From positions 62,001 through 126,000 of the forward strand of contig DASUYB010000103.1 in the NCBI GenBank assembly GCA_036377595.1: a DNA stretch of 64,000 nucleotides. The letters are read 5' to 3'. Below are positions 8,209-57,031 of the stretch, piece after piece (the first letter of the stretch is position 1; the number at the start of each line of letters is the position of its first letter). Source of the DNA: Longimicrobium sp. (lineage in GTDB: Bacteria > Gemmatimonadota > Gemmatimonadetes > Longimicrobiales > Longimicrobiaceae). The translations under genes and the position numbers were made by a program. A model generated the notes under the pieces. The model searched no databases. It was not told the DNA's origin and saw only the letters and a list, made by a program, of their open reading frames with translations.

Positions 8209-8445
8209 ATGCGCAAGCTCACGCTCCATCTCGAAGCGTTGAACGTCGACTCGTTCGACACCGGCTCGGCCGAGGACCGGCGCGGCACCGTGCGCGGTCA
8301 CGACACGCGCGTCACCGAGTTCTGCGCCACGCCGTACTCGCCGTGCAAGCCGACGCAGGCCGCGGGGTGCCACACGTACACCTGCGCGCGCCACGACGAC
8401 GAGATTCCCGCCGCCATGGGCGAGCCGCAGCTGCCGCCGCAGTGA
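8209..8445 (+). CDS. Orphan lanthipeptide precursor (pinensin-like leader)
   Basis: A 78-residue peptide that shares the leader of the precursor array 25 kb away: MRKLTLHLEALNVDSF followed by GTVRGH at residues 26-31. The putative core holds four Cys (39, 46, 54, 59) with several Thr/Ser, then a 19-residue acidic/Pro tail without Cys. CGGGAGAAG precedes ATG 8209. No modification or transport gene is adjacent, so it probably depends on the locus at 27-43 kb. An R1 palindrome follows 14 nt after the stop. Confidence 0.75.
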   Translation: MRKLTLHLEALNVDSFDTGSAEDRRGTVRGHDTRVTEFCATPYSPCKPTQAAGCHTYTCARHDDEIPAAMGEPQLPPQ

Positions 8446-27049: not shown

Positions 27050-27240
27050 CGCAGACCGCCGTGCTTTTTCGGACACGCCGGACCCCACGCGCCGCGCTGG
27101 ATTCGCGGCCGGCGCGGGGCTCGCCGTCTCCACCATGCACGGCCCGGCTGAAGCGTAATCGGCGGCGGCGGAGCGGCAGTGCCCGCTCCTCTTCCCGCCG
27201 ATTCCCGCAGATCCACCCGCTCACGAGAGCCGCCGCACCC

Positions 27241-30200
27241 ATGATGGAATCCTGGCAGGATGGCCGGTCCGAGCCCGGCGAGTGGCTGGGCACGCGCTTC
27301 GTCTGCCGCGTGTCCGGCGCGCCCGCCGACTACGTGGACGACCTGCGCGCCGCGCGCACCCTGGACCTCCTCGGCCGGCTGCACGAGGTCGACGCGCGCC
27401 TCCACGACGAGCGCGAATCGCTCTCCGCGCTCCTCTTCCGCGCCATCGGCGCCGCCACGGAAAAGCCCGTCCGCAACCGCCTGATCACCCTCAAGCGCGA
27501 GCTCTACAACCTCCGCCCGCTCGCCGCGGCGAAGATCGACGACGCGGTGGCCGCGCTCGACGCCGCCGACGCGGGGCAGGTGCGCGCGTTCGCCGCGCTG
27601 CTGGAGGAGCGCGGGCGCGTCGAGGGCGAGCTGAAGCAGGCGTACGGCAGCGAGACGCCCGAGCTGCGCCGCCGCTTCCGCGCGCTGCTGGACGATGTCG
27701 ACTTCCGCAAGGGGCTGATGATCTCCTCCCGCTCGCTCTACGGCTCCCTCGACCGCTGGGGCCAGGCCGCGGCGACGGGCGGGGCGGAGCTGGGGGGGAA
27801 AGAGGAGAAGACGGAGCGCGGGCTGCTGCGCTACTACACGCGCATGGCCATGAAGGCCACGCCCTTCGCCACCTTCTGCGCCATCATCCCCGGCGCCTTC
27901 GTCGACGAGGACGCGTTCGAGGGCGAGGGCGAGTTCCGCTTCGACCGCAGTCCGCGCGAGAAGCGCTCGTTCGTCCGCATCAACAAGTTCATCTACGGCC
28001 TGCTCTTCGATCACCTCAAGACCAGGCCGGTCTTCCGCCGCGCGCTCCACGTCGAGCTGAACCCCACCCTGCGCGAGGAGAACGGGCGGCTGGTGTTCCT
28101 CACCGCCATCGAGGCGCGCGAGGTGTTCCAGCGGCTGGCCAACAACGAGGTGCTGGAGCTGATCACCGGCTCGTACCACGGGCTGGGCAAGCCCACGCTG
28201 GGCGAGCTGATCGCCGCGCTCTCGTCCGATCCGCAGATCGAGGCCACGCCCGAGGAGGCCGAGGCCTATCTCGACAAGCTGATCGAGATCGGCTTCCTGC
28301 GCTTCCACACCGGCATCCGCGAGCAGGACGCGGACTGGGACCTCCCCTTCCGCGAGCTGCTCGACGCGATCGACGACGAGCACGCCACGATCTCGTCCGA
28401 GCTCCTCGCCCGCCTCCGCGAGGTGGTCGAGCGCTACACCGACGCCGACGTCGACGAGCGCGCGCGGATGATCGAGGAGATGCACGCGCTGCTGAACGAC
28501 GCCATCGAGAAGATGGAGGTGCAGCAGCGCCTGCGCCGCGACATGCCGTTCTACGAAGACGCCACCTCGCCCGCCCGCGCCGAGGTGCCGCTGACGCCCG
28601 CCGTCCGCCGCACCTTCGACACCTGGGCCGAGTGGGTGCGCCTGACCAGCCGCGTCAGCTGGCCGCGCGGCGAGCAGGCCACCATGCGGCACTTCTTCGA
28701 CACCTTCTATCCCGAGGGCCGCCGCAGCGTCCCCCTCCTGGTGTTCTACGAGGACTTCTACCGCGAGCACTTCAAGTCGCACGTGGAGAAGGAGGCCAAG
28801 ATCCGCGGCGGCGTGCAGGACGAGGAGCTGAAGGGGTACAACGTGGGCAACCCCTTCGACCTGGACTTCGTCACCCGCCTGGGCGCCGCCCGCGACCGGC
28901 TGGGCGAGGTCATCCGCGAGAAGTGGCAGGCCGCGCCCGAGGCCGAGGAGCTCGTCTTCACCGCCGAGGAGGTGGAGGAGGCGCTGTCGGGGGTGGAGAA
29001 CACCTCCACCGTCTGCCGCTCGATGGGCGCGTTCGCCTGCCTGGTTCCCGGCGAGGCGCCGAAGCTGGTGCTGCAGGGGGGCAGCTACACGGCGGGGTTC
29101 GGGAAGTACTTCTCCCGCTTCCTGTACATGCTCCCCGACGACGTGCAGGAGCAGGTGCGGCGCGAGAACGAGAGCCTGACCGACGAGTACCTGGCGGAGA
29201 TCTGCGGCGACGCGCAGTTCAACGCCAACCTCCATCCGCCGCTGCTGCGCTGGGAGATCAGCTATCCCACCGGCGAGAGCGGCGCGGCCGAGGAGCAGCT
29301 GAAGAGCAGCGAGATCATGGTCGAGACGGACCCGGAGGACGCGACCACGCTCCGCCTCGTCCACGGGCCCACGGGACGCCGCGTGATCCCCGTGGACCTC
29401 GGCTTCCTGAACCCGCGGATGCGGCCGCCGCTCTACCAGCTGATCTCGCGCTTCACCCCGCCGGCCATGTTCGGCCCGCCGATCCCCGAGTCGCCCGAGC
29501 GCCGTCCCCCGCCCAAGCCGAAGGAGGAGGGCGACGCCGTCCCCGCGGCTCAGGGAGATGCGGCTGCCGCGGAGGGAGATCCCGTCGCGGTCGCCGAGGC
29601 GCCGGCGCAGGAGGAGCAGGCGCACCCCGCCGAGGGCGCGCCCGGCGCGCAGGCCGTCGCCGTCCCCGCCGCGGATGGCGATGCGGCCGCGGAGGCGCAG
29701 CCCGCGGGTGACGCGAAGCCAGTGGGCGAGGCGACGTCCGCCGAGACGCCGCCGCCGCCCGCGCCGAAGATCCAGGTGCGGCCGCGCATCGTCTACGGCG
29801 ACTCGCTGGTCCTCGCCCGCCGCCGCTGGTCGGTGCCGGGGGCGCTCTTCCCGCAGCGCGAGCCGCACGAGAGCGCCGCCGACTTCTTCCTGCGCGCCAA
29901 CCGCTGGCGCCTCGAGGCGGGGATCCCCGAGACGGTGTACGTGCGCATCAACCCGCTCCCCGAGCCGCAGCCGCAGAAGCCCGGGCAGCCGGCCGACGCC
30001 GCCGCGCAGGCCGAGGCCGAGGAGCAGCAGGCGCAGGCCGCCGCCGCCGCGGGCGAGGTCCCCGGCTACGAGGCCGCCGAGCACGCCGCGGAAGAGGAGC
30101 ACGAGGCCGAGGCGCCCGAAGCGGCGGCCGAGGGCGAGGCTGCGGCTGCGGAGGGCGAGGACGCCGCGGAGGGGGAGAAGAAGCCCGCCAAGCCGCGCAC

Positions 30201-30468
30201 CGCCGGCTCGCGCGACCTGCACAAGCCGCAGTTCATGGACTTCGGCAACCCGCTCCTGGTCGGTCTCCTCGGGAAGATGGCGGCCAACCTCAAGGCCTAC
30301 AGCGCCGTCTTCGAGGAGCGCCTTCCCGCGCGCGAGGCGCTGCCGCGGCACGACGGCGACCGCTACGCCACCGAGGTGGTCGTGCAGCTCTACTATCCGT
30401 CGGGCACCCTGACCGACGACGCGAACGCCCGCACCGCCGAGGAGGACCATGCTGCCGCCGTGGCCTGA
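27241..30468 (+). CDS. Lanthipeptide dehydratase, glutamylation part (split LanB)
   Basis: A 1075-residue class I dehydratase N-terminal protein (Lant_dehydr_N type). By family it uses glutamyl-tRNA to glutamylate Ser/Thr of precursor peptides. Recognisable are YYTRMAMKATPFATFCAI (near residue 200), RINKFIYGLLFDHL, SMGAFACLVPG, and the C-terminal KPQFMDFGNPLLVGLL block. Two low-complexity Ala/Glu/Pro/Gln inserts (about residues 755-843 and 905-988) split the C-terminal third around VRPRIVYGDSLVLARRRW. The elimination domain is a separate gene overlapping by 20 nt. ATG 27241 or 27244; the ribosome site is weak. Confidence 0.88.
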   Translation: MMESWQDGRSEPGEWLGTRFVCRVSGAPADYVDDLRAARTLDLLGRLHEVDARLHDERESLSALLFRAIGAATEKPVRNRLITLKRELYNLRPLAAAKIDDAVAALDAADAGQVRAFAALLEERGRVEGELKQAYGSETPELRRRFRALLDDVDFRKGLMISSRSLYGSLDRWGQAAATGGAELGGKEEKTERGLLRYYTRMAMKATPFATFCAIIPGAFVDEDAFEGEGEFRFDRSPREKRSFVRINKFIYGLLFDHLKTRPVFRRALHVELNPTLREENGRLVFLTAIEAREVFQRLANNEVLELITGSYHGLGKPTLGELIAALSSDPQIEATPEEAEAYLDKLIEIGFLRFHTGIREQDADWDLPFRELLDAIDDEHATISSELLARLREVVERYTDADVDERARMIEEMHALLNDAIEKMEVQQRLRRDMPFYEDATSPARAEVPLTPAVRRTFDTWAEWVRLTSRVSWPRGEQATMRHFFDTFYPEGRRSVPLLVFYEDFYREHFKSHVEKEAKIRGGVQDEELKGYNVGNPFDLDFVTRLGAARDRLGEVIREKWQAAPEAEELVFTAEEVEEALSGVENTSTVCRSMGAFACLVPGEAPKLVLQGGSYTAGFGKYFSRFLYMLPDDVQEQVRRENESLTDEYLAEICGDAQFNANLHPPLLRWEISYPTGESGAAEEQLKSSEIMVETDPEDATTLRLVHGPTGRRVIPVDLGFLNPRMRPPLYQLISRFTPPAMFGPPIPESPERRPPPKPKEEGDAVPAAQGDAAAAEGDPVAVAEAPAQEEQAHPAEGAPGAQAVAVPAADGDAAAEAQPAGDAKPVGEATSAETPPPPAPKIQVRPRIVYGDSLVLARRRWSVPGALFPQREPHESAADFFLRANRWRLEAGIPETVYVRINPLPEPQPQKPGQPADAAAQAEAEEQQAQAAAAAGEVPGYEAAEHAAEEEHEAEAPEAAAEGEAAAAEGEDAAEGEKKPAKPRTAGSRDLHKPQFMDFGNPLLVGLLGKMAANLKAYSAVFEERLPAREALPRHDGDRYATEVVVQLYYPSGTLTDDANARTAEEDHAAAVA

Positions 30469-31480
30469 GGACAGCCGCTGGCTGGCGGTGCACCTCTTCT
30501 TCAACCACCCGCCGGGGATCTACACGGTGGAGTGCGACCGCATCGTGCTGGACGTGACGGAGCCGTTCGTCCGCCGCTTCCAGCGCGAGGGGTGGGGCGA
30601 CGGGTACTTCTTCATCCGCTACAGCGAGCACGGCCCGCACGTCCGCCTCCGCCTCCACGGGCGCGAGGACGTCCTCGAGGGCACCGTCTGGCCCGCGCTG
30701 CAGGAGCACGTGCGGTCGATGTATCCGGACGTCTCCTTCGAGAAGCCCGACATCCCCGCCTACGGCACGCCCCTGGAGGTGCCCGAGGGCGAGCCGCTGA
30801 AGGTGACGCACGCCGCGCGTATCGAGTACGAGCCCGAGACCGAGCGCTACGGCGGCCCCGAGGGGGTGCGCCTGGCGGAGCGCTTCTTCGAGATCAGCAG
30901 CGAGGCCGCGTTCGCGCTGGTCGCCCGCACCGGCGCCGAGCGCTCGTCGCGCCTGGGAAAGGGGCTGCTGACGATGGTGGAGATGGCGCACGTGCTCACC
31001 CGCGGCAGCCGCGAGGTGGCGGTGCGCTGGATGGACCAGTACAACACCGGCTACCTCCGCGGCGTGGCCCGCGACGAGGAGGGGCGGCAGGCGTGGCTGG
31101 GCGCCTTCGACAGCGGCTACGACGCGCAGGCCGAAACGCTGGGCGAGTACGTGGAGGAGGTGTGGAGCCGGATGAACGAGGGCGAGGCGCTCTCCGACGC
31201 GCTCGACCTCTACCGCGACGGGCTGATCGAGGTGCGCGGCCTGTTCGACGAGCTGTTCGAGCAGCGCAAGCTGGGGCGCACCCCCGAGCCGTACACCGAG
31301 CGGGAGATGGCGGTCACCTCCATCTGCTCGTCGTACCTGCACATGATGAACAACCGCCTGGGGATCACCATCCAGGAAGAGAGCTACCTGGCGTACCTGA
31401 TCAAGCGCACCCTCGAGCGCGAGGCGCCGCCGCGCGAGGCCGAAGACGAGGCCGCCGAGCCCGCCGCGGCCGAGGGCTGA
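30449..31480 (+). CDS. Lanthipeptide dehydratase, elimination part (split LanB C-terminal)
   Basis: A 343-residue protein of the SpaB_C / thiopeptide-type biosynthesis family. In class I systems this domain removes glutamate from glutamylated Ser/Thr to give Dha/Dhb. Seen: WLAVHLFFNHPPGIYTVECDR at the N-terminus, GDGYFFIRYSEHGPHVRLRL, YGGPEGVRLAERFFEISSEAA, and SYLHMMNNRLGI. The last ~20 residues are acidic/Ala-rich. It overlaps the glutamylation gene by 20 nt and is 7 nt ahead of the cyclase gene, so all three form one transcript. Confidence 0.88.
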   Translation: MLPPWPEDSRWLAVHLFFNHPPGIYTVECDRIVLDVTEPFVRRFQREGWGDGYFFIRYSEHGPHVRLRLHGREDVLEGTVWPALQEHVRSMYPDVSFEKPDIPAYGTPLEVPEGEPLKVTHAARIEYEPETERYGGPEGVRLAERFFEISSEAAFALVARTGAERSSRLGKGLLTMVEMAHVLTRGSREVAVRWMDQYNTGYLRGVARDEEGRQAWLGAFDSGYDAQAETLGEYVEEVWSRMNEGEALSDALDLYRDGLIEVRGLFDELFEQRKLGRTPEPYTEREMAVTSICSSYLHMMNNRLGITIQEESYLAYLIKRTLEREAPPREAEDEAAEPAAAEG

Positions 31481-31487: not shown

Positions 31488-33602
31488 ATGAACGCCCGGC
31501 CCGCCGCGGAGGCGGGCCGCACACCCGCAGAGCGAGACGACACGATGGAGCATTCCCCCCACGTTCCCGCGGCCGAGCCCGGCACGCAGGCGTTCTTCCT
31601 GGAGGTGGCCGAGCGCATCGGCCGGCGCGTGGCCGCCGCCGCCGAGTGGCAGGGCGACGGCCGCTGCACGTGGACGATCATGGCGCCCGACCGCGACCGC
31701 CCCGAGCTGCGCACCGCCAAGCCGTCCACCGCCAGCGGCACCCTGTACGAGGGGACGAGCGGGATCGCGCTCTTCCTGGCCGAGCTGTGGAACGCCACCG
31801 GGCGGAGCGACGACGCGCTGGCCCGCGCCGCCGAGGGCGCCATCCTCTTCGCCATGGACGAGGCGAAGGAGCTTCCCGAGCCCTCGTTCGGCTTCCACGG
31901 CGGGCGCGTGGGGATCGCCTACGCCGCCGCGGCGGTGGGGCGCACGCTGGGCCGGCCGGAGCTGCTGCGGATGGCCGACGAGGTGCTGCGCCCCGCCGCC
32001 GGGCAGGAGCGGCAGGACCGCGGGCTCGACGTGATCGGCGGCGGCGGCGGCGCGGTGCAGGCGCTGGTGTGCCTGGCGCAGTGGCTGGACGACGCCGAGC
32101 TGCCGATGGCGATGGCCCGGGCGCTGGGCGAGCACCTGGTGGCCGCGGCCGAGCACGAGCCGGGCGGGTGGTGCTGGGGGACCATGCGCGGCTCGTCGCT
32201 GCGCCACCTCTGCGGCTACGCGCACGGCTCCGCCGGCGTGGGCCACGCGCTCCTCGAGCTGTACCTGGCGACGGGCGACAGCCGCTACCGCTACGCGATG
32301 GAGCAGGCGTTCCTGTACGAGAACCAGTTCTTCAACCCCGAGAGCTCGAACTGGCCGGACCTGCGCCACAACGAGCTGGGCGAGTACCTGTACGCCAACC
32401 GCCAGGAAGAGCTGAAGCAGCGGCTGCTGGGCGGCGACCCCCTGCCGCCGCAGGACTTCCGCTACATGGCCGCGTGGTGCCACGGCGGGCCGGGGATCGG
32501 GCTCAGCCGCCTGCGCGCCTGGCAGACGCTGGGCGAGCCGCGCTGGCTGGAAGACGCGAAGGCGGCCATTGTCGCGACCGACGCCTCGCTGGCGGACCCG
32601 CGGATGAACTACTCGCTCTGCCACGGCCGCGGCGGCAACGCCGAGACCATGATCGTGGGCGCGGAGGTCCTGGACGACGCGTCGCTCCTCGACCGCCCCA
32701 GGCAGGCGGCGATGGAGGGGTGGGAAGCGTACGAGTCGCAGGGGATCCCCTGGCCGTGCGGGACGATGCAGGGTGCCAGCGACCCCGGGCTGCTGCTGGG
32801 CGAGGCGGGGATCGGCTACTGGTTCCTCCGCTTGGCGCGGCCGGAGACGCCGTCGGTGCTCGTCGTCACCCCGCCGGACGAGACGCGCGTGGCCGACGAC
32901 GGCGGCGCCGGCTACCGCGAGCTGCGCGACGAGACGGTGCGCGAGCACTTCGGCCGCTCGCTGGCGCTGTTCGAAGGGTTGGGCGAGGGCGGCGCGGCCG
33001 AGCTGGCGCCGGTGCGCGCGCCCGGCCAGCCGCCGCGCTCCGACGTGGACGCCGCGTTCGAGGCGATCTCCGCGCGCGTGCAGGCGCAGGGCGACCCCGC
33101 GCGCCGCGAGCTGCTGGAAGACGCGTTCCGGCTGGACCGCGAGCGCTACGACCTGTCGCGCGCGATGACCGACTTCACCGAGGAGTTCCTGGAGAACCTG
33201 GTGCGCACGCCCGAGGACGAGGTGCGCTGGCCGGAGGCGCGCTTCGGCCTGAGCCCGCGCGCGCGGGTGGTGCACGGCCAGTGGGACTGGGACGAGTGGC
33301 TCGAGGCGGAGCCCGACGAGCGCGGCGAGCCGGAGGAGGCGGATGTCTTCTACCTGCTGCAGGCCACGGGCGCGCGGGTGAACGTGCGCCGGCTGAGCCC
33401 CTTCGCCGCGCTGGTGCTGCAGGCGGTGGAGACGCCCGCCACGGTCGACGAGGTGGTCGACCGCGTGCAGGAGTCCATCTCCACCGACGGCGAGGGGCCG
33501 AGCCGCGAGTGGCTGGAAGACCGCGTGACCGAGCAGCTGCGCCAGGCCTACCGCGCCGCCTTCGTGGGCGCCGAGAACGGCGTCACCGCCGGCGCGGCTT
33601 GA
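31488..33602 (+). CDS. LanC-like lanthionine cyclase with C-terminal extension
   Basis: A 704-residue protein. Residues ~80-460 are a LanC toroid: GTLYEGTSGIALFLAELW, FGFHGGRVGIAYAAAA, YAHGSAGVGHALLELY. Zinc ligands are Cys331 (WCHGGPGIG) and Cys378-His379 (SLCHGRGGN), so cyclase activity (adding Cys thiols to Dha/Dhb) is expected. About 235 further residues have no LanC counterpart. The last ~80 (RRLSPFAALVLQAVETPATVDEVVDRV onward, in short segments) look like a small winged-helix or PqqD-like domain; that is a guess. ATG 31488 or 31545 could be the start. Confidence 0.87.
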   Translation: MNARPAAEAGRTPAERDDTMEHSPHVPAAEPGTQAFFLEVAERIGRRVAAAAEWQGDGRCTWTIMAPDRDRPELRTAKPSTASGTLYEGTSGIALFLAELWNATGRSDDALARAAEGAILFAMDEAKELPEPSFGFHGGRVGIAYAAAAVGRTLGRPELLRMADEVLRPAAGQERQDRGLDVIGGGGGAVQALVCLAQWLDDAELPMAMARALGEHLVAAAEHEPGGWCWGTMRGSSLRHLCGYAHGSAGVGHALLELYLATGDSRYRYAMEQAFLYENQFFNPESSNWPDLRHNELGEYLYANRQEELKQRLLGGDPLPPQDFRYMAAWCHGGPGIGLSRLRAWQTLGEPRWLEDAKAAIVATDASLADPRMNYSLCHGRGGNAETMIVGAEVLDDASLLDRPRQAAMEGWEAYESQGIPWPCGTMQGASDPGLLLGEAGIGYWFLRLARPETPSVLVVTPPDETRVADDGGAGYRELRDETVREHFGRSLALFEGLGEGGAAELAPVRAPGQPPRSDVDAAFEAISARVQAQGDPARRELLEDAFRLDRERYDLSRAMTDFTEEFLENLVRTPEDEVRWPEARFGLSPRARVVHGQWDWDEWLEAEPDERGEPEEADVFYLLQATGARVNVRRLSPFAALVLQAVETPATVDEVVDRVQESISTDGEGPSREWLEDRVTEQLRQAYRAAFVGAENGVTAGAA

Positions 33603-33693: not shown

Positions 33694-33885
33694 ATGAAGA
33701 AGCTCAAGCTCCAGCTGGAAGAGCTGGACGTGCAATCGTTCCGGGTCGACGGGGTGATCCTGGCCGAAGCGGGTACGGTGCGCGGGCATGCGGTCACGCG
33801 CCTCGATACCTGCCAGGCGAGCTGCGGACCCACCGCGTGCTCCGATCCCCTCTCGTGCGCGCAGCAGACCTGCTTCTGCGGCTGA
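33694..33885 (+). CDS. Lanthipeptide precursor A1
   Basis: 63 residues. Leader MKKLKLQLEELDVQSF, then GTVRGH at 27-32. The core has six Cys (40, 44, 49, 55, 60, 62) with Thr/Ser before most of them and ends CFCG. GAGGA at 33685-33689 supports ATG 33694. It pairs closely with the next gene in Cys spacing (C-x3-C-x4-C-x5-C). Confidence 0.85.
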   Translation: MKKLKLQLEELDVQSFRVDGVILAEAGTVRGHAVTRLDTCQASCGPTACSDPLSCAQQTCFCG

Positions 33886-33970
33886 GCCCGGACGCTTGCG
33901 GTCACGCGCCATCATTGACCCGGCCCGTGCCTGCCCGGCACAGGGACGGACACAACCCGTGGAGTGAACG

Positions 33971-34159
33971 ATGAAGAAGCTGAAGCTGGACCTGGCTGCG
34001 CTCGGCGTGGAGTCGTTCGCCGCGGACGCCGCCTCGCGCGCGGAGATGGGGACCGTGGAGGCGCAGGTGACCTCGATCAACGGCACCTGCGTGGTGAGCT
34101 GCTACCACACGGCGTGCATCGCGCAGGCCACCTGCGGCTCCACCTGCGAGTGCGGCTGA
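33971..34159 (+). CDS. Lanthipeptide precursor A2
   Basis: 62 residues. Leader MKKLKLDLAALGVESF and GTVEAQ motif. The core starts NGTCVVSCYHTAC and ends STCECG, with six Cys in nearly the same spacing as A1, so the two are recent duplicates. GGAG lies 7 nt before ATG 33971. It is the last precursor before the interruption at 34.2-36.6 kb. Confidence 0.85.
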   Translation: MKKLKLDLAALGVESFAADAASRAEMGTVEAQVTSINGTCVVSCYHTACIAQATCGSTCECG

Positions 34160-35595: not shown

Positions 35596-35768
35596 GGAAG
35601 GCGGCGTCCGTGCGGGCGCAGGAGCGCCCGGTGCGGATACGGATCGTTGTAGACGACGTACAGGCCGCCGTTTCCCCAGGCAATGTCGTCCGCTACCCGG
35701 GGCAGCAGGTAGCTCCCGAGATATCGCCCGTCGCGCGTCACGGCGCCGCTGTTCCGTAACGGCACAAG
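35592..35768 (-). pseudogene. 3' remnant of an unidentified gene
   Basis: About 58 codons after the IS5-like start read DGRYLGSYLLPRVADDIAWG...LYVVYNDPYP and end in a normal TGA that overlaps the start of the next gene. The style (GRYLGSYLLP) is reminiscent of the last blade of secreted six-bladed propeller proteins, but this is only an impression. The 5' part appears replaced by transposon sequence. Confidence 0.4.
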
Positions 35769-35870
35769 CCCTTGCGGTGCCTCCGACAGGTCTGTCAGGG
35801 CCAGACACGGTGCGACGAAGGTCCATTCCTCGTCGCTGACATCAGTCGGGTACTTTTTGCGATTCGACAT
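35769..35870 (-). mobile_element. IS5-type transposase N-terminal remnant
   Basis: The first ~34 codons of the frame starting at ATG 35870 (RKKYPTDVSDEEWTFVAPCL, then ALTDLSEAPQ) match the conserved N-terminus of IS5-group transposases (PxDVSDEEWAFVAPYL...DAPQ pattern). The frame then runs on without any DDE-domain sequence. No terminal repeats were identified. It is a relic of an insertion, not an active element. Confidence 0.65.
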
Positions 35871-36651: not shown

Positions 36652-36900
36652 ATGCGCAAGCTCAGACTGGACCTGGATCAGCTCGAGGTCGACTCGTTCC
36701 GCACCGGCGAGGCGTACGGCGTGGGAACCATCCAGGCGCATTCCGACAGCGACGTCGAGGTGTGCCTGCAGCCGGGGGACGACCAGGTCGCCATCACGGT
36801 GCCCGTCACCTGGGCCAAGACGTGCGACACCTGCCCGGGCCTGTACACCTGCAATCTCTCGTGCATTCGCACGGAACCCGGCTGCACCACCTGCACCTGA
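36652..36900 (+). CDS. Lanthipeptide precursor B1
   Basis: 82 residues. Leader MRKLRLDLDQLEVDSF, GTIQAH motif. The core has seven Cys and shares a (D)xVAIT...WxKTC block with the precursor at 37181. It ends PGCTTCT. AGGAGG at 36640-36645 gives an excellent ribosome site. It is the first gene of the second precursor group. Confidence 0.85.
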   Translation: MRKLRLDLDQLEVDSFRTGEAYGVGTIQAHSDSDVEVCLQPGDDQVAITVPVTWAKTCDTCPGLYTCNLSCIRTEPGCTTCT

Positions 36901-36945
36901 GGCCGCGCCCGGTCCGGTCGACCCTGGATCTAAGGGGAGGGTGAG

Positions 36946-37113
36946 ATGAAGAAGCTGAGCCTGGACCTGGACCGCCTCGCCGTCGACTCGTTCGCGGTGG
37001 ACGCCGGCGGCGGCGGGGGGACGGTGGCCGCGCACGAGGCGGTGACGCAGGCGCACTCGTGCTACGACACGGTCTGCTGCCCCGTCACCCGCTACCGCAC
37101 CTGCACCTGCTGA
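36946..37113 (+). CDS. Lanthipeptide precursor C1
   Basis: 55 residues, too short for most gene callers. Leader MKKLSLDLDRLAVDSF, then a Gly5 run and GTVAAH. The core is HSCYDTVCCPVTRYRTCTC with five Cys. The HSCxxTxCCPxT block is shared with the precursor at 38399. GGGGAGG at 36934-36940 precedes ATG 36946. Confidence 0.85.
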   Translation: MKKLSLDLDRLAVDSFAVDAGGGGGTVAAHEAVTQAHSCYDTVCCPVTRYRTCTC

Positions 37114-37120
37114 CCGGCGG

Positions 37121-37141
37121 GCCGCGGCGGTTCGCCGCGGC
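37121..37141 (+). terminator. Hairpin between precursor genes
   Basis: A 9-bp stem GCCGCGGCG/CGCCGCGGC with a 3-nt loop, 7 nt after the stop of precursor C1, no T-run. It may act as an attenuator or mRNA-stabilising hairpin. Confidence 0.4.
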
Positions 37142-37180
37142 GCGCCGTGTTCATCACCTCGACCCGGGGGAGTACGTACG

Positions 37181-37450
37181 ATGAAGAAGCTCAGGCTGAA
37201 TCTGGAGCAGCTCGCGGTCGACGCGTTCGAAACCGGTGAGGCGCGGGGGCTGGGCACCGTGCGCGCGCGGGAGAGCGACCCCGACCTCTGCGTCGCGCAG
37301 CCCATCGACGACGGCGAGGTGGCCATCACCGCCACGCTGTGGAAGACCTGTCCGAACACCTGCGCCTTCACCTGCCAGGGCGACACCTGCTACATCACCT
37401 GCGTGACGGGGTGCAGCTGCCGGACGATGCCCTGCGACACCTGCGCCTGA
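37181..37450 (+). CDS. Lanthipeptide precursor B2
   Basis: 89 residues, the longest of the set. Leader MKKLRLNLEQLAVDAF, GTVRAR motif. The core contains EVAITATLWKTCPNTC and a dense Cys/Thr C-terminus ending PCDTCA, with ten Cys in all. It is related to B1 and B3 by the VAI/LxxxxxWKTC block. GGGGGAG at 37166-37172 supports ATG 37181. Confidence 0.85.
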   Translation: MKKLRLNLEQLAVDAFETGEARGLGTVRARESDPDLCVAQPIDDGEVAITATLWKTCPNTCAFTCQGDTCYITCVTGCSCRTMPCDTCA

Positions 37451-37461
37451 GCGGAGGAGCG

Positions 37462-37710
37462 ATGCGGAGGAAGATGAAGCTCGACGTCGGCGCGCTCTCC
37501 GTCGACACCTTCACGCTCGACGACGCGCCGTCGGCGGGCGGCACCGTGCGCGGGCACGACAGCGACGAGGTGGCGCTGATCCCCACCACCGACTGGAAGA
37601 CCTGCCGCTGCACCAACCAGCCGGACACCTGCGGAGACCTGTGCTCCAACCCGTGCCCGGTGTACACCGACGGCTGCGCGCCGCCGCGCGACCCGATCAT
37701 CATCGTCTGA
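37462..37710 (+). CDS. Lanthipeptide precursor B3
   Basis: 82 residues. Leader MRRKMKLDVGALSVDTF, GTVRGHDSDEVALIP, then TDWKTCRCTNQPDTC. It has six Cys and a Cys-free tail PPRDPIIIV, which resembles the long Cys-free tail of the orphan peptide at 8209. GGAGG 4 nt before ATG 37462; ATG 37474 is an alternative. It follows B2 after 11 nt. Confidence 0.83.
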   Translation: MRRKMKLDVGALSVDTFTLDDAPSAGGTVRGHDSDEVALIPTTDWKTCRCTNQPDTCGDLCSNPCPVYTDGCAPPRDPIIIV

Positions 37711-37738
37711 GCCGGCGCCGGCCTCCGGCGCCGTTTCG

Positions 37739-37775
37739 CGCGCGGAGCCGCGGTCACGTGCCGCGGCTCCGCGCG
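37739..37775 (+). terminator. 15-bp hairpin in the precursor array
   Basis: A perfect 15-bp stem (37739-37753 with 37761-37775), loop TCACGTG, followed by AGTCCTCTC. It divides precursors B1-B3 and C1 from the following ones and could reduce read-through. Confidence 0.55.
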
Positions 37776-37809
37776 AGTCCTCTCATCCCCAGCGGGAGAA
37801 GATCGACCG

Positions 37810-37959
37810 ATGCCCAAGCTGAAGCTGGACCTCGAAGCCATCGCCGTGGAGAGCTTCGACGCCGACGCCGCCGGCCCGGCGCGCGACGCCCTGAGCGGGC
37901 ACCCCTGCTCCGCCATCGACGCGTGCCCGTCGCGCCTGTGCGCCACGTCGCTCTGCTGA
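37810..37959 (+). CDS. Lanthipeptide precursor D1
   Basis: 49 residues, the shortest. Leader MPKLKLDLEAIAVESF; the GTV motif is missing (DALSGHP in its place). The core is CSAIDACPSRLCATSLC with four Cys. It shares CSAIDACPS with the next gene. GGGAGAA precedes ATG 37810 by 9 nt. Confidence 0.82.
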   Translation: MPKLKLDLEAIAVESFDADAAGPARDALSGHPCSAIDACPSRLCATSLC

Positions 37960-38000
37960 GCGGCGCGATCACCAACCCTTCCCACCAGAGGAGCAAGACG

Positions 38001-38174
38001 ATGGAGAAGCTGAGACTCGACCTCGACGCGATCGCCGTGGAGAGCTTCGACGTGGCCGATGTTCGCGACGAGCGCGGCACCGTGCTGGGCAACGACTTCG
38101 TCAGCGGGCGCCGCTGCTCGGCCATCGACGCGTGCCCGTCGGCGCGCGGCTGCACCGAGATCTCGCCCTGCTGA
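38001..38174 (+). CDS. Lanthipeptide precursor D2
   Basis: 57 residues. Leader MEKLRLDLDAIAVESF, GTVLGN motif. The core is CSAIDACPSARGCTEISPC with four Cys. It is a clear paralogue of D1 and D3. GAGGAG lies upstream of ATG 38001. Confidence 0.85.
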   Translation: MEKLRLDLDAIAVESFDVADVRDERGTVLGNDFVSGRRCSAIDACPSARGCTEISPC

Positions 38175-38205
38175 GCCCACGGATCTCCAGACCAGGAGGC
38201 ACACC

Positions 38206-38358
38206 ATGGAGAAGCTGAAGCTGGACGTGGACGCCGTTTCGGTGGAGTCGTTCGACCCCCGGACGGCCCCCCCCGCCGCGCTCGAGGACATCCTGCGCCC
38301 CTCGCGCCTCGACGCATGCCCGTCGTCGCGCGGCTGCACCGAGATCACGTCCTGCTGA
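38206..38358 (+). CDS. Lanthipeptide precursor D3
   Basis: 50 residues. Leader MEKLKLDVDAVSVESF; no GTV motif (AALEDILRPSR). The core is LDACPSSRGCTEITSC with three Cys, so the first Cys of the D-type core is lost. AGGAGG at 38194-38199. Confidence 0.83.
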   Translation: MEKLKLDVDAVSVESFDPRTAPPAALEDILRPSRLDACPSSRGCTEITSC

Positions 38359-38398
38359 CGGGACGCGAAACCTTTCCCATCCCACGAGGAGTACAACC

Positions 38399-38563
38399 AT
38401 GCAGAAGCTGACGCTCGACGTGGCCGAGCTGCGCGTCGAATCGTTCGCCGCGGGCGAGTCCGCCGGCGAGGGCACCGTGCACGGCGCCGAGGCCACCCCC
38501 GGCCACTCGTGCCTGCGCACCGCGTGCTGCCCCGACACCTTCCAGCCGGGCTGCACCGGCTGA
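38399..38563 (+). CDS. Lanthipeptide precursor C2
   Basis: 54 residues. Leader MQKLTLDVAELRVESF, GTVHGA motif. The core PGHSCLRTACCPDTFQ ends in PGCTG, with four Cys, and is paralogous to C1 (HSCxxTxCCPxT). CGAGGA precedes ATG 38399 by 8 nt. It is the last precursor and is followed by a strong hairpin. Confidence 0.83.
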   Translation: MQKLTLDVAELRVESFAAGESAGEGTVHGAEATPGHSCLRTACCPDTFQPGCTG

Positions 38564-39084: not shown

Positions 39085-40896
39085 ATGCCCCCGTCCCAGC
39101 ACGCGGAGATCCCGCCGCTTCGAGAGGCGTTCCAGCAGTTCCTCAGGCTGCTGCGGCTCATCCGCCGCTACTGGGGGCCGCTGGGCAAGGGGATCGCGCT
39201 CGGACTCGTGCTGGGGCTGCTGGGGATGGTCACGCCGTACCTGTCCAAGCTGCTGATCGACGAGGTGTATCCCACCCGCAACCTCACCCTCATGGAGGTG
39301 CTGGTCGCGGGGATCCTGGCGGTTTCGGTGGCGTCGGCGGTGATGTCGGCCATCCGCACCTACTTCACCTCCTACACCACCAACCACCTCTCCAACGCCA
39401 CCTCGCTCCTCTTCTTCAACCACCTGCAGCACCTGCGCACGCGCTTCTTCGACGAGCACCGCGTGGGCGAGATCGTGTCGCGCTTCGCCGACGTGCGCAA
39501 CTCGCTGAACAGCGTGAGCCGCGTGTTCGAGACGCTGTTCGTGAACGGCGTGTACCTGATCCTGGTGCCGCCCTTCCTGTTCGTGCTGCAGTGGAAGCTG
39601 GCCATCGTCTCGCTGATCACCATCCCCCTGACGGTGGCCATCACCACCGCGTCGGCCCGGCTGCTGCGGCGCTTCTGGAAGAAGAGCGCCGAGGCGTACG
39701 CCGACCTGGGCGCCTACCAGGTGGAGGTGCTGAGCCATATCCGCACGCTCAAGGTGATGGCCATGGAGCACGCCGTGTACGGGCGTGCCCGCGACCAGAT
39801 CCAGCAGGCGCTGCAGGTGCAGCTCAAGGCCAACGCGTGGAGCCAGGTGTTCACCACCATCACCGCGGTGGTGCGCGCGCTGGGGACGGCGGTGTTCACC
39901 TGGTACGGGTGGACGCTGATCGTGCAGGGCGACATGTCGCTGGGCGACTACATCGCCTTCACCGCCTACATGGGGTACCTGTACAACCCGCTCCAGCAGA
40001 TCACCGGGCTGTTCTCCGACTTCCAGCAGACCGCGGTGAACCTGGGGCGCATGTTCGAGTACCTCGACAAGCCGGTGGAGCAGGACCCGGCCGGCGCCTA
40101 CGAGCCGCACGGCCCCATCGAGCACCAGATCGAGGGCGACGTCCGCCTGCGCGACCTGTCCTTCGGCTACACCGAGGAAAAGCGCGTCATCCACGACGTG
40201 ACCCTGCACTTCCCGCGCGGCGGCGTGACGGCCATCGTGGGCCCCAGCGGCGCGGGGAAGAGCAGCCTGCTGCGCCTGATCACGCGCATGGAGGACCCGG
40301 ACGCGGGGCAGGTGTTCGTGGACGGCGTGCCCGTGACCTCGATGTCGATGAGCGACCTGCGGCGCCAGGTGAGCGTGGTGTGGCAGGAGTTCTCGCTGAT
40401 GCAGGGCACCATCTGGGAGAACCTGACGCTGGGCGCCGAGCGCGTGACCCGCGCCGAGGTCGACGACGCGGTGCGGCTCTGCCGGCTCGACTCGCTGGTG
40501 GCCGACCTGCCCAAGGGCTACGACACCAGCGTGGCCGAGTGGGGCGCCACCCTCTCGGGCGGGCAGCGGCAGCGGATGGCGCTGGCCCGCGCGCTGATCC
40601 GCGACACGCCGGTGCTGCTCCTCGACGAGGCCACCAGCAACATCGACATGCAGACCGAGACGGAGATCCTGCGCGACCTCTTCCAGCGGCTGCAGGGGAA
40701 GACCATCATCTTCGTGACCCACCGCGTGCAGACCGCCGCGCTGGCCGACCAGATCTGCGTGATCGAGGCGGGGCGCGTGGCCGGGGTGGGCACGCACGCG
40801 GAGCTTTACCGCGACAACGAGACCTACCGCCTGCTGCACGGCGGCGGCAACGTGGAAGAGGTGCGGCGCCTGCGCGCCGTCCCGCAGACGGTCTGA
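39085..40896 (+). CDS. ABC exporter, fused membrane and ATPase domains
   Basis: A 603-residue half-transporter. Six membrane helices (about residues 35-310) precede an ATPase with Walker A GPSGAGKSS (~387), signature LSGGQRQR (~490), Walker B VLLLDEAT (~509) and the H-loop TH. It lacks the N-terminal C39 peptidase domain of bacteriocin exporters, so leader removal must come from another enzyme. With the HlyD-type adaptor next to it, it probably exports the lanthipeptides. ATG 39085 has no clear ribosome site. Confidence 0.88.
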   Translation: MPPSQHAEIPPLREAFQQFLRLLRLIRRYWGPLGKGIALGLVLGLLGMVTPYLSKLLIDEVYPTRNLTLMEVLVAGILAVSVASAVMSAIRTYFTSYTTNHLSNATSLLFFNHLQHLRTRFFDEHRVGEIVSRFADVRNSLNSVSRVFETLFVNGVYLILVPPFLFVLQWKLAIVSLITIPLTVAITTASARLLRRFWKKSAEAYADLGAYQVEVLSHIRTLKVMAMEHAVYGRARDQIQQALQVQLKANAWSQVFTTITAVVRALGTAVFTWYGWTLIVQGDMSLGDYIAFTAYMGYLYNPLQQITGLFSDFQQTAVNLGRMFEYLDKPVEQDPAGAYEPHGPIEHQIEGDVRLRDLSFGYTEEKRVIHDVTLHFPRGGVTAIVGPSGAGKSSLLRLITRMEDPDAGQVFVDGVPVTSMSMSDLRRQVSVVWQEFSLMQGTIWENLTLGAERVTRAEVDDAVRLCRLDSLVADLPKGYDTSVAEWGATLSGGQRQRMALARALIRDTPVLLLDEATSNIDMQTETEILRDLFQRLQGKTIIFVTHRVQTAALADQICVIEAGRVAGVGTHAELYRDNETYRLLHGGGNVEEVRRLRAVPQTV

Positions 40897-40994: not shown

Positions 40995-42215
40995 ATGAGC
41001 CCCATCCCCAAGAAGGCCGGGCCCGATCCCGACGTGATCCCGCTGCGGCTTCCCGAGATTCCCGACGAGGGGCAGCCCGGCTCGCGCTTCGTCCGCCGCT
41101 CGGTGGGGATGACGCTGACGCTGGTGGCGCTCCTGGCGGCCACCGCGTTCCTGGTGGCGTCGATCGTGAGGATGGACGTGACGGTGAAGGCGGCCGGCGT
41201 GCTGGAGCCCGTGGGCCTCTACCCGGTGCGCGCGCTGGAGGGCGGCCCGGTGCGCGAGGTGCTGGTGCAGACCGGCGACACCGTCCATCGCGGCCAGGTG
41301 CTGGTCCGCATGGACACGGTGGAGCTCAGCTCGTCGCTGGCCCAGCTCGAGGCGCAGCTGCGCGCGGCCGAGATCGACCGCCAGCGCAGCGCCACCGCCG
41401 ACCCGCTGCAGCGCGAGCAGAACCTCCAGCGCGCCGCCCAGACCCGCCAGCGGCTCGCGGCCGCGATGGCCACCCTCCGCCAGCGGATGGTGGAGTACGA
41501 CCTGGGGACCAACGCCGATTCGCTCCTGGCCGCCTACGTGCCGGGGACGCACGTGACGCTCGACCAGGCGGTCAGCGAGGTGCGCAGCGCCCAGGCCGAG
41601 CTGCGCGTGTCGGGCGCCGAGGGCGGGCTGCAGGAGCTGTCGCGCTTCGACCGCGAGAAGCTGGGGACGCAGATGGACCAGCTGCGCGCGCAGATCGCCG
41701 CGGTGCGGGCGCGGCTGGGCAAGCTGACCATCGCCGCGCCGGTGGACGGGGTGGTGCTGACCGAGCAGCTGGAGCGGCTGAACGGCGCCTTCGTGCGCGA
41801 GGGCGAGCAGCTGATGGAGCTGGGGGGGACGACGCAGTGGCGGGTGCAGCTGAACGTCAGCGAGCGCGACGTGCACAAGATCCACGTGGGCGACTCGGTG
41901 AAGGTGGAGCTTCCCGCCTTCGACCAGTCCGAACGCCAGCTGCTGGGCGGGCGGGTGGACTACGTGGCCCCCGAGCCGCTGGCGCTGCAGGGGGCGCAGG
42001 CCGGCGCGGGCGGGCAGCAGCCGGGCGCGGCGGCGGGCGGGCAGGCGGGGCCGGGCGTCTACCGCATCACCGCCACGCTGGAACGCTCGCAGCTGGAGAA
42101 GATGGGCATCGAAAACTTCCGCCGGGGGTATTCGGTGCAGGGGAACGTGATCACCAAGAGCGGACGCATCATCACGCTGCTATGGAACTACCTGACCGAG
42201 AAGCTGGGGAAGTGA
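40995..42215 (+). CDS. HlyD-family periplasmic adaptor
   Basis: A 406-residue membrane fusion protein. One membrane anchor (about residues 38-58), a lipoyl-like beta domain (AGVLEPVGLYPVRALEGG, VLVQTGDTVHRGQVLVRMD), a coiled-coil hairpin (~105-240), the second lipoyl half (LTIAAPVDGVVL) and a beta-barrel with a Gly/Ala/Gln-rich loop (~330-350). By family it bridges the ABC exporter to an outer-membrane channel; no TolC-like gene is nearby. The next gene overlaps its 3' end. Confidence 0.87.
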   Translation: MSPIPKKAGPDPDVIPLRLPEIPDEGQPGSRFVRRSVGMTLTLVALLAATAFLVASIVRMDVTVKAAGVLEPVGLYPVRALEGGPVREVLVQTGDTVHRGQVLVRMDTVELSSSLAQLEAQLRAAEIDRQRSATADPLQREQNLQRAAQTRQRLAAAMATLRQRMVEYDLGTNADSLLAAYVPGTHVTLDQAVSEVRSAQAELRVSGAEGGLQELSRFDREKLGTQMDQLRAQIAAVRARLGKLTIAAPVDGVVLTEQLERLNGAFVREGEQLMELGGTTQWRVQLNVSERDVHKIHVGDSVKVELPAFDQSERQLLGGRVDYVAPEPLALQGAQAGAGGQQPGAAAGGQAGPGVYRITATLERSQLEKMGIENFRRGYSVQGNVITKSGRIITLLWNYLTEKLGK

Positions 42216-43333
42216 CCGACGGGGCACGCTTCGGGCCGCCCGCGCCCTTCGATCCGCCGGAGTGGGTGGCCGACGGGCTGGGGCGGCCCACGGGACGCGG
42301 GCTGCTCGTCGGGGTGATCGACAGCGGGTGGGACCGCAACTGCGACGATCCGCGCGTCCTTCCGGGGATCGGACTGGTCGACCCCGAGGACGACCTGGCC
42401 ATGCTGCGCACCGACGACGACCACGACCGCGTGGGCCACGGCACGGCGTGCATCCACCAGATCCTGCGCATCGCCCCGGATGCCCAGGTCGTGCCCATCC
42501 GCGTGTTCGGGCGCGACCTGGAGACCAGCCCGGGAACGCTGCAGGCGGGGATCCTGTACGCCATCGAGCGCGGCGTGAACGTGGTGAACCTGAGCCTGGG
42601 AACCACCCTCGAGGGCACGCTGCAGCCGCTGTACATCGCGTGCGAGAAGGCGCGGCAGCAGGGGATCATCGTGGTGGCCGCGGGGCACAACTCCAAGGAC
42701 TGGAGCTACCCGGCCATCTTCGAGCCGGTGATCGGCGTGTCGGCGGGGCGCTTCGGGTCGCCGTACGAGTACCGCTACCTGCACGACGAGGCGATGGAGT
42801 GCCAGGCGTGGGGGGTGGAGCAGCCGGTGATCTGGCTGCGCGGCGAGCAGCAGATCAAGCACGGCACCAGCTTCGCGGCGCCGAACATCACCGGGATCGT
42901 GTGCCTGCTGATGGAGCGCCATCCCGGCGCCGGGCTCGAGGAGATCCGCGAGCTGCTGCCGCAGTACGCCCTCGAGGTGGTCTCCGCCCCCGCCGAGGAG
43001 AAGCCGAAGCGCCGGCCGCGTGCGAAGGCGGCGGCCGCCAAGTCCAAGGCGGCGAAGAAGCCGTCGCGGAAGAAGGGCGAGGCGGCGGAGGCCAAGGCGC
43101 CGGCGCCCCGCCGTTCCCGCCGCAAGGCTGCCGCGGAGGTGGTGGAGACTCCCGCGCCCACCGCGTCCGACAACGGCGCCAAGCCGCGCCGCCCGCGCGC
43201 GAAGGCCGCGACCGCCGCCAGGCCCGCGGCGAAGAAGCGTCCGGTGAAGAAGGACGAGGCGGCGGAGGCGAAGAAGGACGAGCCGGCGGAGACGAAGCCC
43301 CGGCGCCGCCGGCGAACGCCCGCGGCGGTGTAG
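42212..43333 (+). CDS. Cytosolic subtilisin-like protease with basic tail
   Basis: A 373-residue S8 peptidase. Triad: Asp37 (VIDSGWDRN), His76 (VGHGTAC) and Ser220 (HGTSFAAPN); oxyanion Asn in AAGHNSKD. No signal peptide or propeptide is seen. After residue ~255 comes a ~120-residue Lys/Ala/Pro/Arg tail (KKPSRKKGEAAEAKAP, PRRRRRTPAAV), like histone H1-type bacterial proteins. GTG 42212 overlaps the HlyD stop (GTGA); ATG 42182 is an alternative. Position and lack of C39 in the exporter suggest it removes precursor leaders; this is inference. Confidence 0.83.
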   Translation: MTDGARFGPPAPFDPPEWVADGLGRPTGRGLLVGVIDSGWDRNCDDPRVLPGIGLVDPEDDLAMLRTDDDHDRVGHGTACIHQILRIAPDAQVVPIRVFGRDLETSPGTLQAGILYAIERGVNVVNLSLGTTLEGTLQPLYIACEKARQQGIIVVAAGHNSKDWSYPAIFEPVIGVSAGRFGSPYEYRYLHDEAMECQAWGVEQPVIWLRGEQQIKHGTSFAAPNITGIVCLLMERHPGAGLEEIRELLPQYALEVVSAPAEEKPKRRPRAKAAAAKSKAAKKPSRKKGEAAEAKAPAPRRSRRKAAAEVVETPAPTASDNGAKPRRPRAKAATAARPAAKKRPVKKDEAAEAKKDEPAETKPRRRRRTPAAV

Positions 43334-43342: not shown

Positions 43343-43410
43343 GGGCTCACGCAGAGTCAGCAGGGTCAGCAGAGAACAAACTGCTGGCCCTGCTGACTCT
43401 GCGTGAGCCC
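43343..43410. terminator. R1 operon-end palindrome
   Basis: 30-nt arms (43343-43372 and 43381-43410) with one mismatch and an 8-nt loop, built of CAGCAGGGTCAG units, followed by TTTCTTTT. It starts 10 nt past the protease stop and closes the lanthipeptide locus. Confidence 0.75.
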
Positions 43411-43444: not shown

Positions 43445-43516
43445 CTCTCACAGAGGGCACAGAGGTCACGGAGGAATTCGTTTTTTCCTCTGTGACCTCT
43501 GTGCCCTCCGTGAGAG
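43445..43516. terminator. R1 operon-end palindrome
   Basis: 30-nt arms (43445-43474 and 43487-43516) around a T-rich loop. It lies 6 nt from the stop of the last gene of the minus-strand sigma operon. With the neighbouring palindrome it forms a back-to-back terminator pair. Confidence 0.7.
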
Positions 43517-56062: not shown

Positions 56063-56272
56063 TCAGATGCAGCCGGCGTAGCAGGTGAACTGCTCCACCC
56101 GGGTGTCGATCTCGCAGACACACCCGTCCTCGGACATGCTCTCGCACCCCCCGGCGCAGTTCGAGTAGATCGAGCCCTGCCCGCGTACGGTCCCACGCTG
56201 TCTCGCCTCGATGCCTTCGGTGGCGAACTCCTCGACCTTCAGCGCGTCGACGTCCAGCTTCAGCTTGTGCAT
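56063..56272 (-). CDS. Orphan lanthipeptide precursor (pinensin-like leader)
   Basis: 69 residues. Leader MHKLKLDVDALKVEEF and GTVRGQ (27-32) as in the precursor array 18 kb away. The core has six Cys (39, 43, 51, 53, 64, 68) with Ser/Thr, ending TCYAGCI. GGAGG 5 nt before ATG 56272 is a strong ribosome site. No biosynthetic gene is nearby, so it would need the enzymes of the main locus. It does not fit any of the four core groups of the array. Confidence 0.75.
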   Translation of the reverse strand: MHKLKLDVDALKVEEFATEGIEARQRGTVRGQGSIYSNCAGGCESMSEDGCVCEIDTRVEQFTCYAGCI

Positions 56273-56438
56273 CGAACCTCCAGTGCGTGGATGGGAACGC
56301 ACCGCGCCAACCGCCCCGGGACGGTCGTTTCTGCGTACGGTTACGTCCTGAAAGATGCGCAATTATCCGAATTTCGCAAGATCACGCGCACATTGTGGCG
56401 GAACAAGCGCAGGGAACAGCATTCGGGTGGCGCCCTGA

Positions 56439-56804
56439 TCAGCCCTGTTCCGCCAACCAGTCCAGCGCCTGCTCGCGGGTGTCGAACGCGGGGATCTTGC
56501 GGCGGGTGAACAGGAGCACGGCCTGGTAGGCGATGCGGTGCAGCCCGCCCATCCCCACGATGGCGCTGGCCCTGACGTACGGCCCGTTGTGCGCCGCCAG
56601 CTCCTTCATCGCCTGCAGCACCGCCGAGTTGTAGCGCGCGTCCTTCACATCCGTCAGCACCAGCAGCGAGTGCGGGGGATGCTGCGCCACCACCGACTTC
56701 GAGTGCTCGATGGTGGCGATGGCCTGCTCGGGGTTCTGGATGCCGGAGTAGTCGAGCAGGAGAATGCGTTTCCCGCGGTGGTCGATGAACCGGGTGCGCT
56801 CCAT
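56439..56804 (-). CDS. STAS/SpoIIAA-like small protein
   Basis: 121 residues: RTRFIDHRGKRILLLDYSGI, HSLLVLTDVKDARYNSAVLQ, FTRRKIPAFDTREQALDWLA. The alternating beta/alpha pattern is like SpoIIAA-like (STAS-related) domains. These are often found in environmental bacteria with unknown partners. No signal peptide. GGAG precedes ATG 56804. Function unknown. Confidence 0.7.
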   Translation of the reverse strand: MERTRFIDHRGKRILLLDYSGIQNPEQAIATIEHSKSVVAQHPPHSLLVLTDVKDARYNSAVLQAMKELAAHNGPYVRASAIVGMGGLHRIAYQAVLLFTRRKIPAFDTREQALDWLAEQG

Positions 56805-56943
56805 GGGGTGTGTCTCCGAACCGGATGGGTCTGGCTGAAACTGCAGAGGAGATCTGCGGAGGTGATGGAATGTTGCGCCCGGCCCGCGTCGGGCGCCAGC
56901 CCTCGCGATGAAGCGGCCATGGAGATGGGAGACAACAGAAAGA

Positions 56944-57023
56944 GTCTCACGCGGAGACGCGGAGGCGCGGAGAACTCACCGCCGGACTGAGTTCCTCCGC
57001 GCCTCCGCGTCTCCGCGTGAGAA
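56944..57023. terminator. R1 operon-end palindrome
   Basis: ~30-nt arms (56944-56973 and 56993-57023) of CGGAGACGCGGAGG units with T-rich feet, 9 nt from the stop of the minus-strand protein kinase gene. Confidence 0.7.
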
Positions 57024-57031
57024 CGATTCCG

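Follow-up and report, generated by a model that had tools for sequence, protein, structure and literature searches.

The window analysed here is a 64,000-nucleotide stretch of DNA from a Longimicrobium sp. genome (G000), in which the gene under study, P0001, encodes a small orphan precursor peptide on the minus strand (Table 1). The peptide consists of the leader MHKLKLDVDALKVEEFATEGIEARQRGTVRGQ followed by the core GSIYSNCAGGCESMSEDGCVCEIDTRVEQFTCYAGCI. The leader, which opens with MHKLKLDVDALKVEEF and closes with GTVRGQ, spans residues 1-32, contains no Cys, and features three boxes: LxLD at residues 4-7, VEEF at 13-16, and GTVRGQ at 27-32. The core comprises residues 33-69 (37 aa) and contains six Cys, four Ser, and two Thr. 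A first-pass annotation, made before any database search, had described a minus-strand peptide at this position with a leader, GTVRGQ and six Cys, which held exactly, and an excellent ribosome site, which held in the form of a GGAGG motif 4 nt from the ATG. P0001 is solitary between two genes of its own strand: upstream, a SpoIIAA-like gene (56439-56804) that scores under the Pfam cut-off, and downstream, a gene for a DUF2059 protein. Its distance to the LanC gene of the window is ~22.5 kb. The annotation had also placed P0001 13 kb downstream, which held when counting from the end of the enzyme and export cluster (43333), and had mentioned two flanking orphans, the other of which is most likely the precursor gene at 8209-8445 (+).

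Table 1. Features of the window discussed in the text, in order of position.
Feature	Position	Strand	Basis or remark
Second orphan precursor	8209..8445	+	Leader profile match
LanB glutamylation part, separate polypeptide	27238..30468	+	PF04738, 141 bits, over cut-off; frame open from 27004
LanB elimination part, separate polypeptide	30449..31480	+	PF14028, 146 bits, over cut-off
LanC cyclase with C-terminal TglI/NGO1945-like domain	31488..33602	+	PF05147, 173 bits
RRE-like subdomain of LanC extension (predicted)	33237..33581	+	AlphaFold model and structural alignments
Precursor array, part one	33694..34159	+	Leader profile; 2 genes (33694-33885, 33971-34159)
Precursor array, part two	36652..38563	+	Leader profile; 8 genes
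ABC exporter	39085..40896	+	Pfam hits, without peptidase C39 domain
HlyD-type adaptor	40995..42215	+	Domain search
Subtilase, candidate leader peptidase	42182..43333	+	PF00082; QhpE-like, 127 bits
Long G+C-rich hairpin 3' of P0001	55920..55954	-	81 nt folded, z -4.1
Orphan precursor peptide gene P0001	56063..56272	-	69 aa
Shine-Dalgarno-like GGAGG of P0001	56277..56281	-	Ends 4 nt ahead of ATG
Upstream element TTGCGCATCTTTCAGG, 16 nt	56347..56362	-	1 mismatch to copy at C83 paralogue; near-copy in G002

We also examined the sequences that flank P0001. The TTGCGCATCTTTCAGG element has no copy at ≤4 mismatches upstream of any of the other 224 precursors (300 nt searched for each), and it was rejected as a promoter common to all precursors, with a match within one mismatch at just P0001 and its paralogue on contig C83 among 226 upstream regions. 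A search for a common promoter by k-mer enrichment (124 first genes) yielded weak words only, mostly of G+C type. Scanning for consensus promoters and terminators revealed no sigma-70-like promoter upstream of P0001, and the hairpin between P0001 and the next gene, which is terminator-like with a weak U tract, was absent from the output of that scan. Near-perfect intergenic hairpin repeats occur elsewhere in the window (56929-57038, 43343-43410, and 43445-43516), one of them with CTCACGCGGAG arms, and related copies are present on contig C83.

The six enzyme and export proteins in Table 1 form a hub that meets the sequence criteria of a class I lanthipeptide system: both LanB domains, a separate LanC, and precursors with a leader and a Ser/Thr/Cys core. 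LanC contains both a WCHG and an LCHG motif, which we take to be its zinc ligands. All six hub proteins were matched together in a single stretch of G003, G009, and G015. The precursor array is interrupted by ~2.5 kb (34160-36650) that include a small ORF at 35592-35870 (-), the start of which resembles a fragment of an IS transposase. Within G000, PF14028 occurs at two places only, PF04738 at three loci (the window, contig C98, and C1, where the match is weaker), and PF05147 at three loci (the window, C98, and a weak one on C145). The third LanB-like protein (C1:12835-14748) and the third LanC-like protein (C145:62836-63825) have no leader-type precursors in the 20-kb stretches around their genes. 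Contig C98 holds a second complete set of LanB, LanC, exporter, and subtilase (C98:12886-24095; L116, L117) with two precursors of its own, in which the leader has RTF in place of ESF and lacks the full GTV motif, and one of which repeats C-[ST]-x-C in its core. A cluster-bound precursor similar to those of C98 is found in G007.

P0001 is one member of a large and scattered family. As a query against G000, it gave 142 matching places at E≤10 from 150 scored candidates. A profile built from 40 leaders, with the consensus MxKLxLDxDxLxVESFxTxxxxxxRGTVxGH, matched all of the 150 candidates scored, out of 431, at E≤1.7e-7. Using a leader HMM trained on 112 leaders from the same genome, we scanned 94 stretches (1.57 of 7.20 Mb) that were picked around matches and include all 150 scored places. 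At ≥10 bits the scan returned 226 ORFs and 2 shuffled decoys, and at ≥15 bits it returned 223 ORFs and no decoy, which sets a lower bound of 223 precursors in G000. P0001 is not a chance ORF, because it has 142 matches in the genome and homologues in two other genomes, and because the 226 ORFs stand against 2 decoys. A loose pattern detects an LxLD-like leader box in 223 of the 226, and the box is exact in 111; LxLD is a variant of the FxLD box, which is the recognition sequence for lanthipeptide RREs (PMC12710340). A Shine-Dalgarno-like motif occurs at -20 to -4 in 203 of the 226 precursors, compared with 29 at -60 to -44.

The 226 precursors are distributed over 106 sites on 61 contigs, and 65 of them are single genes. 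Eighteen are on the same contig as an enzyme set. The first-pass annotation had named a genome-wide count of the leader as a check, and the outcome is at least 223 precursors, few of them near the enzymes: a LanB/LanC set lies within 10 kb of just 12 of the 226. The assembly comprises 208 contigs and has an estimated contamination of 4.83%, but the orphans were not created by broken contigs, because 106 of the 226 lie at least 10 kb from either contig end on contigs without an enzyme set. The densest array, with 24 precursor genes, occupies an 11.7-kb contig without a LanB/LanC match (C20:1-11724; L030), and several of its cores have counterparts among arrays of G001 and G003.

We next consider the cores, which were analysed in the 191 precursors that could be divided at GTVxG (35 of the 226 could not). 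Every one of these cores contains at least two Cys (median 6, maximum 25), Ser plus Thr equal or outnumber Cys in 186 of them, and the 191 leaders hold seven Cys in total. Random pairs are 32% identical in their cores, compared with 29% for shuffled cores, and 47% identical in their leaders. Across all 226 precursors, Ser/Thr is found at position -1 of Cys 606 times (294 expected, z 23.7) and at position -5 550 times (262 expected, z 18.5), and a Cys-Cys spacing of 4 is enriched (z 14.0). The resulting grammar, [ST]Cxx[ST]C, is compatible with ring formation, as inferred from sequence alone. The annotation had claimed that the core of P0001 fits none of four groups within the array, which also held: over shuffles, it reaches z≤2.9 when compared with the remaining 11 window precursors and ≤1.0 against the 10 array members, and z=14 against the C83 paralogue.

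Absence of the leader from related genomes had been put forward as an observation that would refute a shared leader tag. We compared the occurrence of the leader (profile E≤1e-6) with that of the LanB elimination domain (PF14028, E≤0.001), and both were present in the identical 9 of 31 relatives and the identical 10 of 21 family genomes. Among the 33 distinct genomes pooled from these samples, which are not mutually independent, 10 have both and 23 have neither, with zero exceptions, so the leader is not missing but occurs in exactly those genomes with the domain. Leader numbers, with PF14028 copies in parentheses, are at least 150 in G000 (2), at least 150 in G003 (1), 132 in G001 (1), 69 in G009 (2), 54 in G014 (5), 39 in G015 (1), 15 in G008 (2), 11 in G002 (1), 5 in G031 (1), and 1 in G007 (1). 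A phylum sample of 298 genomes, with at most 27 candidates scored per genome, gave PF14028 in 9 of 9 leader genomes and no leader in 281 of 281 genomes that lack PF14028. Eight of the 17 genomes with PF14028 in this sample have no leader. In six of these eight, the domain sits in an open frame of 1067-1176 aa that likely encodes a fused LanB of another type, and one match is a fragment (G061). G090, which encodes a separate 315-aa PF14028 frame and has no leader at E≤1e-6, contradicts a strict rule.

The aligned LanB elimination domains fall into two types. Those of the window type, from eight genomes, are 47-82% identical, whereas those of C98 and G007 are 43% identical to each other and 31-41% identical to the rest (G007 to the window, 33%). 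The eight genomes with the window type carry from 11 to at least 150 leaders, whereas G007, which has the other type only, carries one leader, without GTV. In G007, G186, and G188, the match to the LanB domain is ~0.2-3.4 kb away from a lone leader gene, which suggests by inference that a clustered single precursor is ancestral and that scattering is derived.

Conservation of cores between species was assessed in G001 and G003, each sampled in 21 stretches, 20 of them around leader matches, that contain 71 and 72 precursors, respectively. Cores that match a G000 core above every shuffled control number 58 of 72 in G003 and 24 of 71 in G001. Reciprocal best pairs (37 with G003 and 16 with G001) were picked by core score, which biases them toward conserved cores. 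Their dN/dS values for leader and core are 0.50 and 0.43 in the 37 pairs and 0.66 and 0.60 in the 16 pairs. Core Cys are retained at 254 of 263 and 126 of 133 positions, compared with 673 of 1004 and 254 of 463 for non-Cys residues, with Ser and Thr excluded. None of the cores are identical, as recent copying would leave behind. Taken together, the core matches, the dN/dS values, and the retention of Cys indicate that cores are diverse inside a genome and individually conserved across species.

P0001 itself has full-length homologues (E≤1e-9) in 3 of 31 genomes, which are its own, G002, and G015, and G000 carries two copies of this family, P0001 and the paralogue on C83. All six Cys of P0001 have counterparts in the C83, G002, and G015 homologues, and an insert in the C83/G015 form adds a seventh. 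The dN/dS values from these four homologues alone were too noisy for use. Around the G002, G015, and C83 homologues, none of eight proteins neighbouring P0001 was matched (tblastn E≤1e-4), such that the peptide alone was matched. DNA similarity around P0001 ends near the gene, extending over 237 bp with G002 and 292 bp with G015, and C83 and G015 share 308 bp plus one extra 78-bp piece upstream. The unshared neighbours, the extent of the DNA similarity, and the 16-nt upstream element fit a P0001 gene that travels solo with its leader. The precursor copies of two different genera (L024, at C83:39967-40200, and L227:534-767) have a low dS of 0.13-0.21 over few sites, and the LanB domains of the two genomes are 55% identical, which together hint at horizontal transfer of a single gene.

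The LanC of the window carries an extension (~32910-33581) that may be relevant to how the leader is read. An AlphaFold model from 8 sequences has a pLDDT of 81.7, and over both of its domains it aligns with a TglHI chain (Z 13.2 for 207 residues, rmsd 5.3) and with NGO1945 (Z 11.4 for 190 residues, rmsd 5.1). TglI and NGO1945 are partners of MNIO enzymes, and NGO1945 combines a DUF2063 with a domain of the RRE type (PMC12452194). The RRE-like subdomain aligns with TbiB1 with leader (Z 6.7), PqqD (6.2), MibB (6.1), and NisB (5.2), and other winged helices score comparably; the PF05402 match on the extension is weak (E 0.083). The model predicts an RRE-like fold for the extension, and any binding of the leader by it is inferred. 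It adjoins LanB in loci of Gemmatimonadetes, Acidobacteria, Ignavibacteriales, and Melioribacteraceae, and it was undetected (tblastn E≤1e-3) in Bacteroidota loci, C98, and G007, although non-detection is not proof of absence.

What these analyses show is that P0001 is a gene of a numerous and scattered leader family, that an enzyme set is present, that leader and LanB elimination domain co-occur across genomes, that cores are conserved and follow a grammar of Cys and Ser/Thr, and that the LanC extension has a predicted RRE-like fold. We consider it likely (probability roughly 0.83) that P0001 is the precursor of a class I lanthipeptide modified in trans and that most of the more than 220 precursors, for which no transcript, peptide, or product data exist, are processed by the window set. 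In the proposed mechanism, P0001 would be transcribed from its own unit, outside the enzyme cluster, and its leader, KLxLD..L.V[ED][ST]F...GTVxG, would be recognised both by the split LanB, through its RRE, and by LanC, through its RRE-bearing extension, the two enzymes being encoded at 27-34 kb. LanB would then dehydrate Ser/Thr of the core, and LanC would close thioether rings onto Cys. The product would be exported by the ABC/HlyD pair, and the leader would be cut off near GTVxG by the subtilase. Transcription, binding, dehydration, cyclisation, the site of cleavage, export, and the choice between the window and C98 sets are inferred from sequence alone. If most precursors do share one set, the leader would be a portable address, and a new core would require no new enzyme. 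The first-pass annotation had proposed such a portable tag for one enzyme set, which is supported, although the tag function itself is inferred in the absence of transcription or modification data. A bolder reading, which we consider as likely to fail as to hold, is that one or two class I LanB/LanC sets, with a cyclase that has acquired a leader reader resembling MNIO partners, yield more than 200 different lanthipeptides per cell from single leader-core cassettes that are mobile within the genome and between species, with each core selected for its own target. If so, leader and RRE would constitute an address system open to any newly arrived gene.

The alternative that survives best, though we regard it as unlikely, is that the C98 set, or both sets, modifies P0001 rather than the window set alone. 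In its favour, C98 encodes a LanB, LanC, exporter, and subtilase of a similar general kind, and two GTV-leader precursors lie ~10 kb from that set on the same contig. However, the precursors inside the C98 set have the deviant leader described above, G007 has a C98-type LanB only and a single leader without GTV, and G001 and G003 each combine a single PF14028 copy of the window type with at least 132 leaders. We find it very improbable that the orphans are decayed or silent duplicates shed from the array and out of use. Some precursors are short or lack GTVxG (the 35 indivisible ones), and expression data are lacking, but the dN/dS of 0.43-0.66 is a purifying pattern with 254 of 263 Cys retained, the Shine-Dalgarno-like motif is correctly placed in 203 of 226 precursors, and cores are common to several species without being identical. 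Less probable still is the possibility that these are disulfide-rich or metal-binding small proteins whose common N-terminus is no RiPP leader, for which speak the Cys-rich cores (up to 25 Cys) and the resemblance of the LanC extension to MNIO partner proteins (the targets of MNIO enzymes are mostly Cys residues in RiPPs, and some of these RiPPs bind metal; PMC12452194), but against which stand the co-occurrence of leader and LanB, the placement of Ser/Thr at -1 and -5 of Cys, the ten copies within the enzyme cluster, and an N-terminus without a hydrophobic signal stretch.

Modification in trans by the window set, our preferred reading, resembles the prochlorosin system (ProcA/SyncA with ProcM/SyncM) in that a shared leader precedes diverse cores, genes are single or in tandem, and few synthetases act in trans. 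In contrast to the prochlorosins, which depend on class II LanM enzymes and Nif11-family leaders in picocyanobacteria, the G000 system has a class I split LanB with LanC, a different leader, a subtilase, an exporter without C39, and no fewer than 223 precursors, with cores that are found again in other species. No Nif11-family hit was obtained in Pfam or NCBIfam for 41 precursors, and the LanM criterion is unmet, as the hub is LanB plus LanC. The highest precursor counts per genome that we found for prochlorosins and synechococsins are 83 and 79 (PMC10783134), and the G000 number is ~2.7 times the largest published count that we found (83).

The system also resembles the pinensins of Bacteroidota (NF038180), with which it shares a split LanB and a LanM-like LanC (PMC7268733), in the window next to the precursor array, and a related leader. 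Against NF038180 (cut-off 24 bits), P0001 gave no hit at E≤1, two of six other window precursors scored 13.6 and 12.8 bits, and 19 of 41 (a random 40 of the 226 plus P0001) hit at E≤1, with a best E of 1.5e-6. Elsewhere, NF038180 scored 36.3 bits at a Melioribacteraceae locus, 26.5 at an acidobacterial one, and 24.8 in Gemmatimonadetes. The G000 leaders are related to the pinensin leader and are not NF038180 members by the cut-off test. Unlike pinensins, they end in GTVxG rather than GG, their genes extend beyond the cluster, and the LanC extension was undetected in the Bacteroidota loci. That extension aligns to the two-part fold of MNIO partners (TglI, NGO1945/HvfC; DUF2063 plus RRE) but is fused to a lanthionine cyclase, and none of the six hub proteins is an MNIO enzyme, the hub being all that this statement covers. 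The best NCBIfam hit of the hub subtilase is of the QhpE type, but its 127 bits are below the cut-off of 165. The system in G000 is thus likely a class I, pinensin-related, trans-acting one with a very large number of precursors, which operates like the prochlorosins.

Class I lanthipeptide enzymes are usually found clustered with a single precursor or a handful of them. A genome note on Longimicrobium terrae reports three lanthipeptide clusters and does not mention scattered precursors. We found no description of such a repertoire in the open-licence PubMed Central literature searched, including passages of PMC8692599, PMC9248904, PMC11251773, PMC7470986, and PMC12328550. If our reading is true, mining such genomes by cluster overlooks more than 90% of their products, and a class I system acting on more than 200 natural substrates in one genome would represent a ready-made, naturally tested, broad-substrate toolkit for ring formation, among the largest peptide-ring factories described. 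The fusion of LanC to a TglI/NGO1945-like reader suggests a structural reason for this substrate tolerance. Furthermore, the conservation of single cores across species makes it possible to test why one cell maintains such a large number of peptides.
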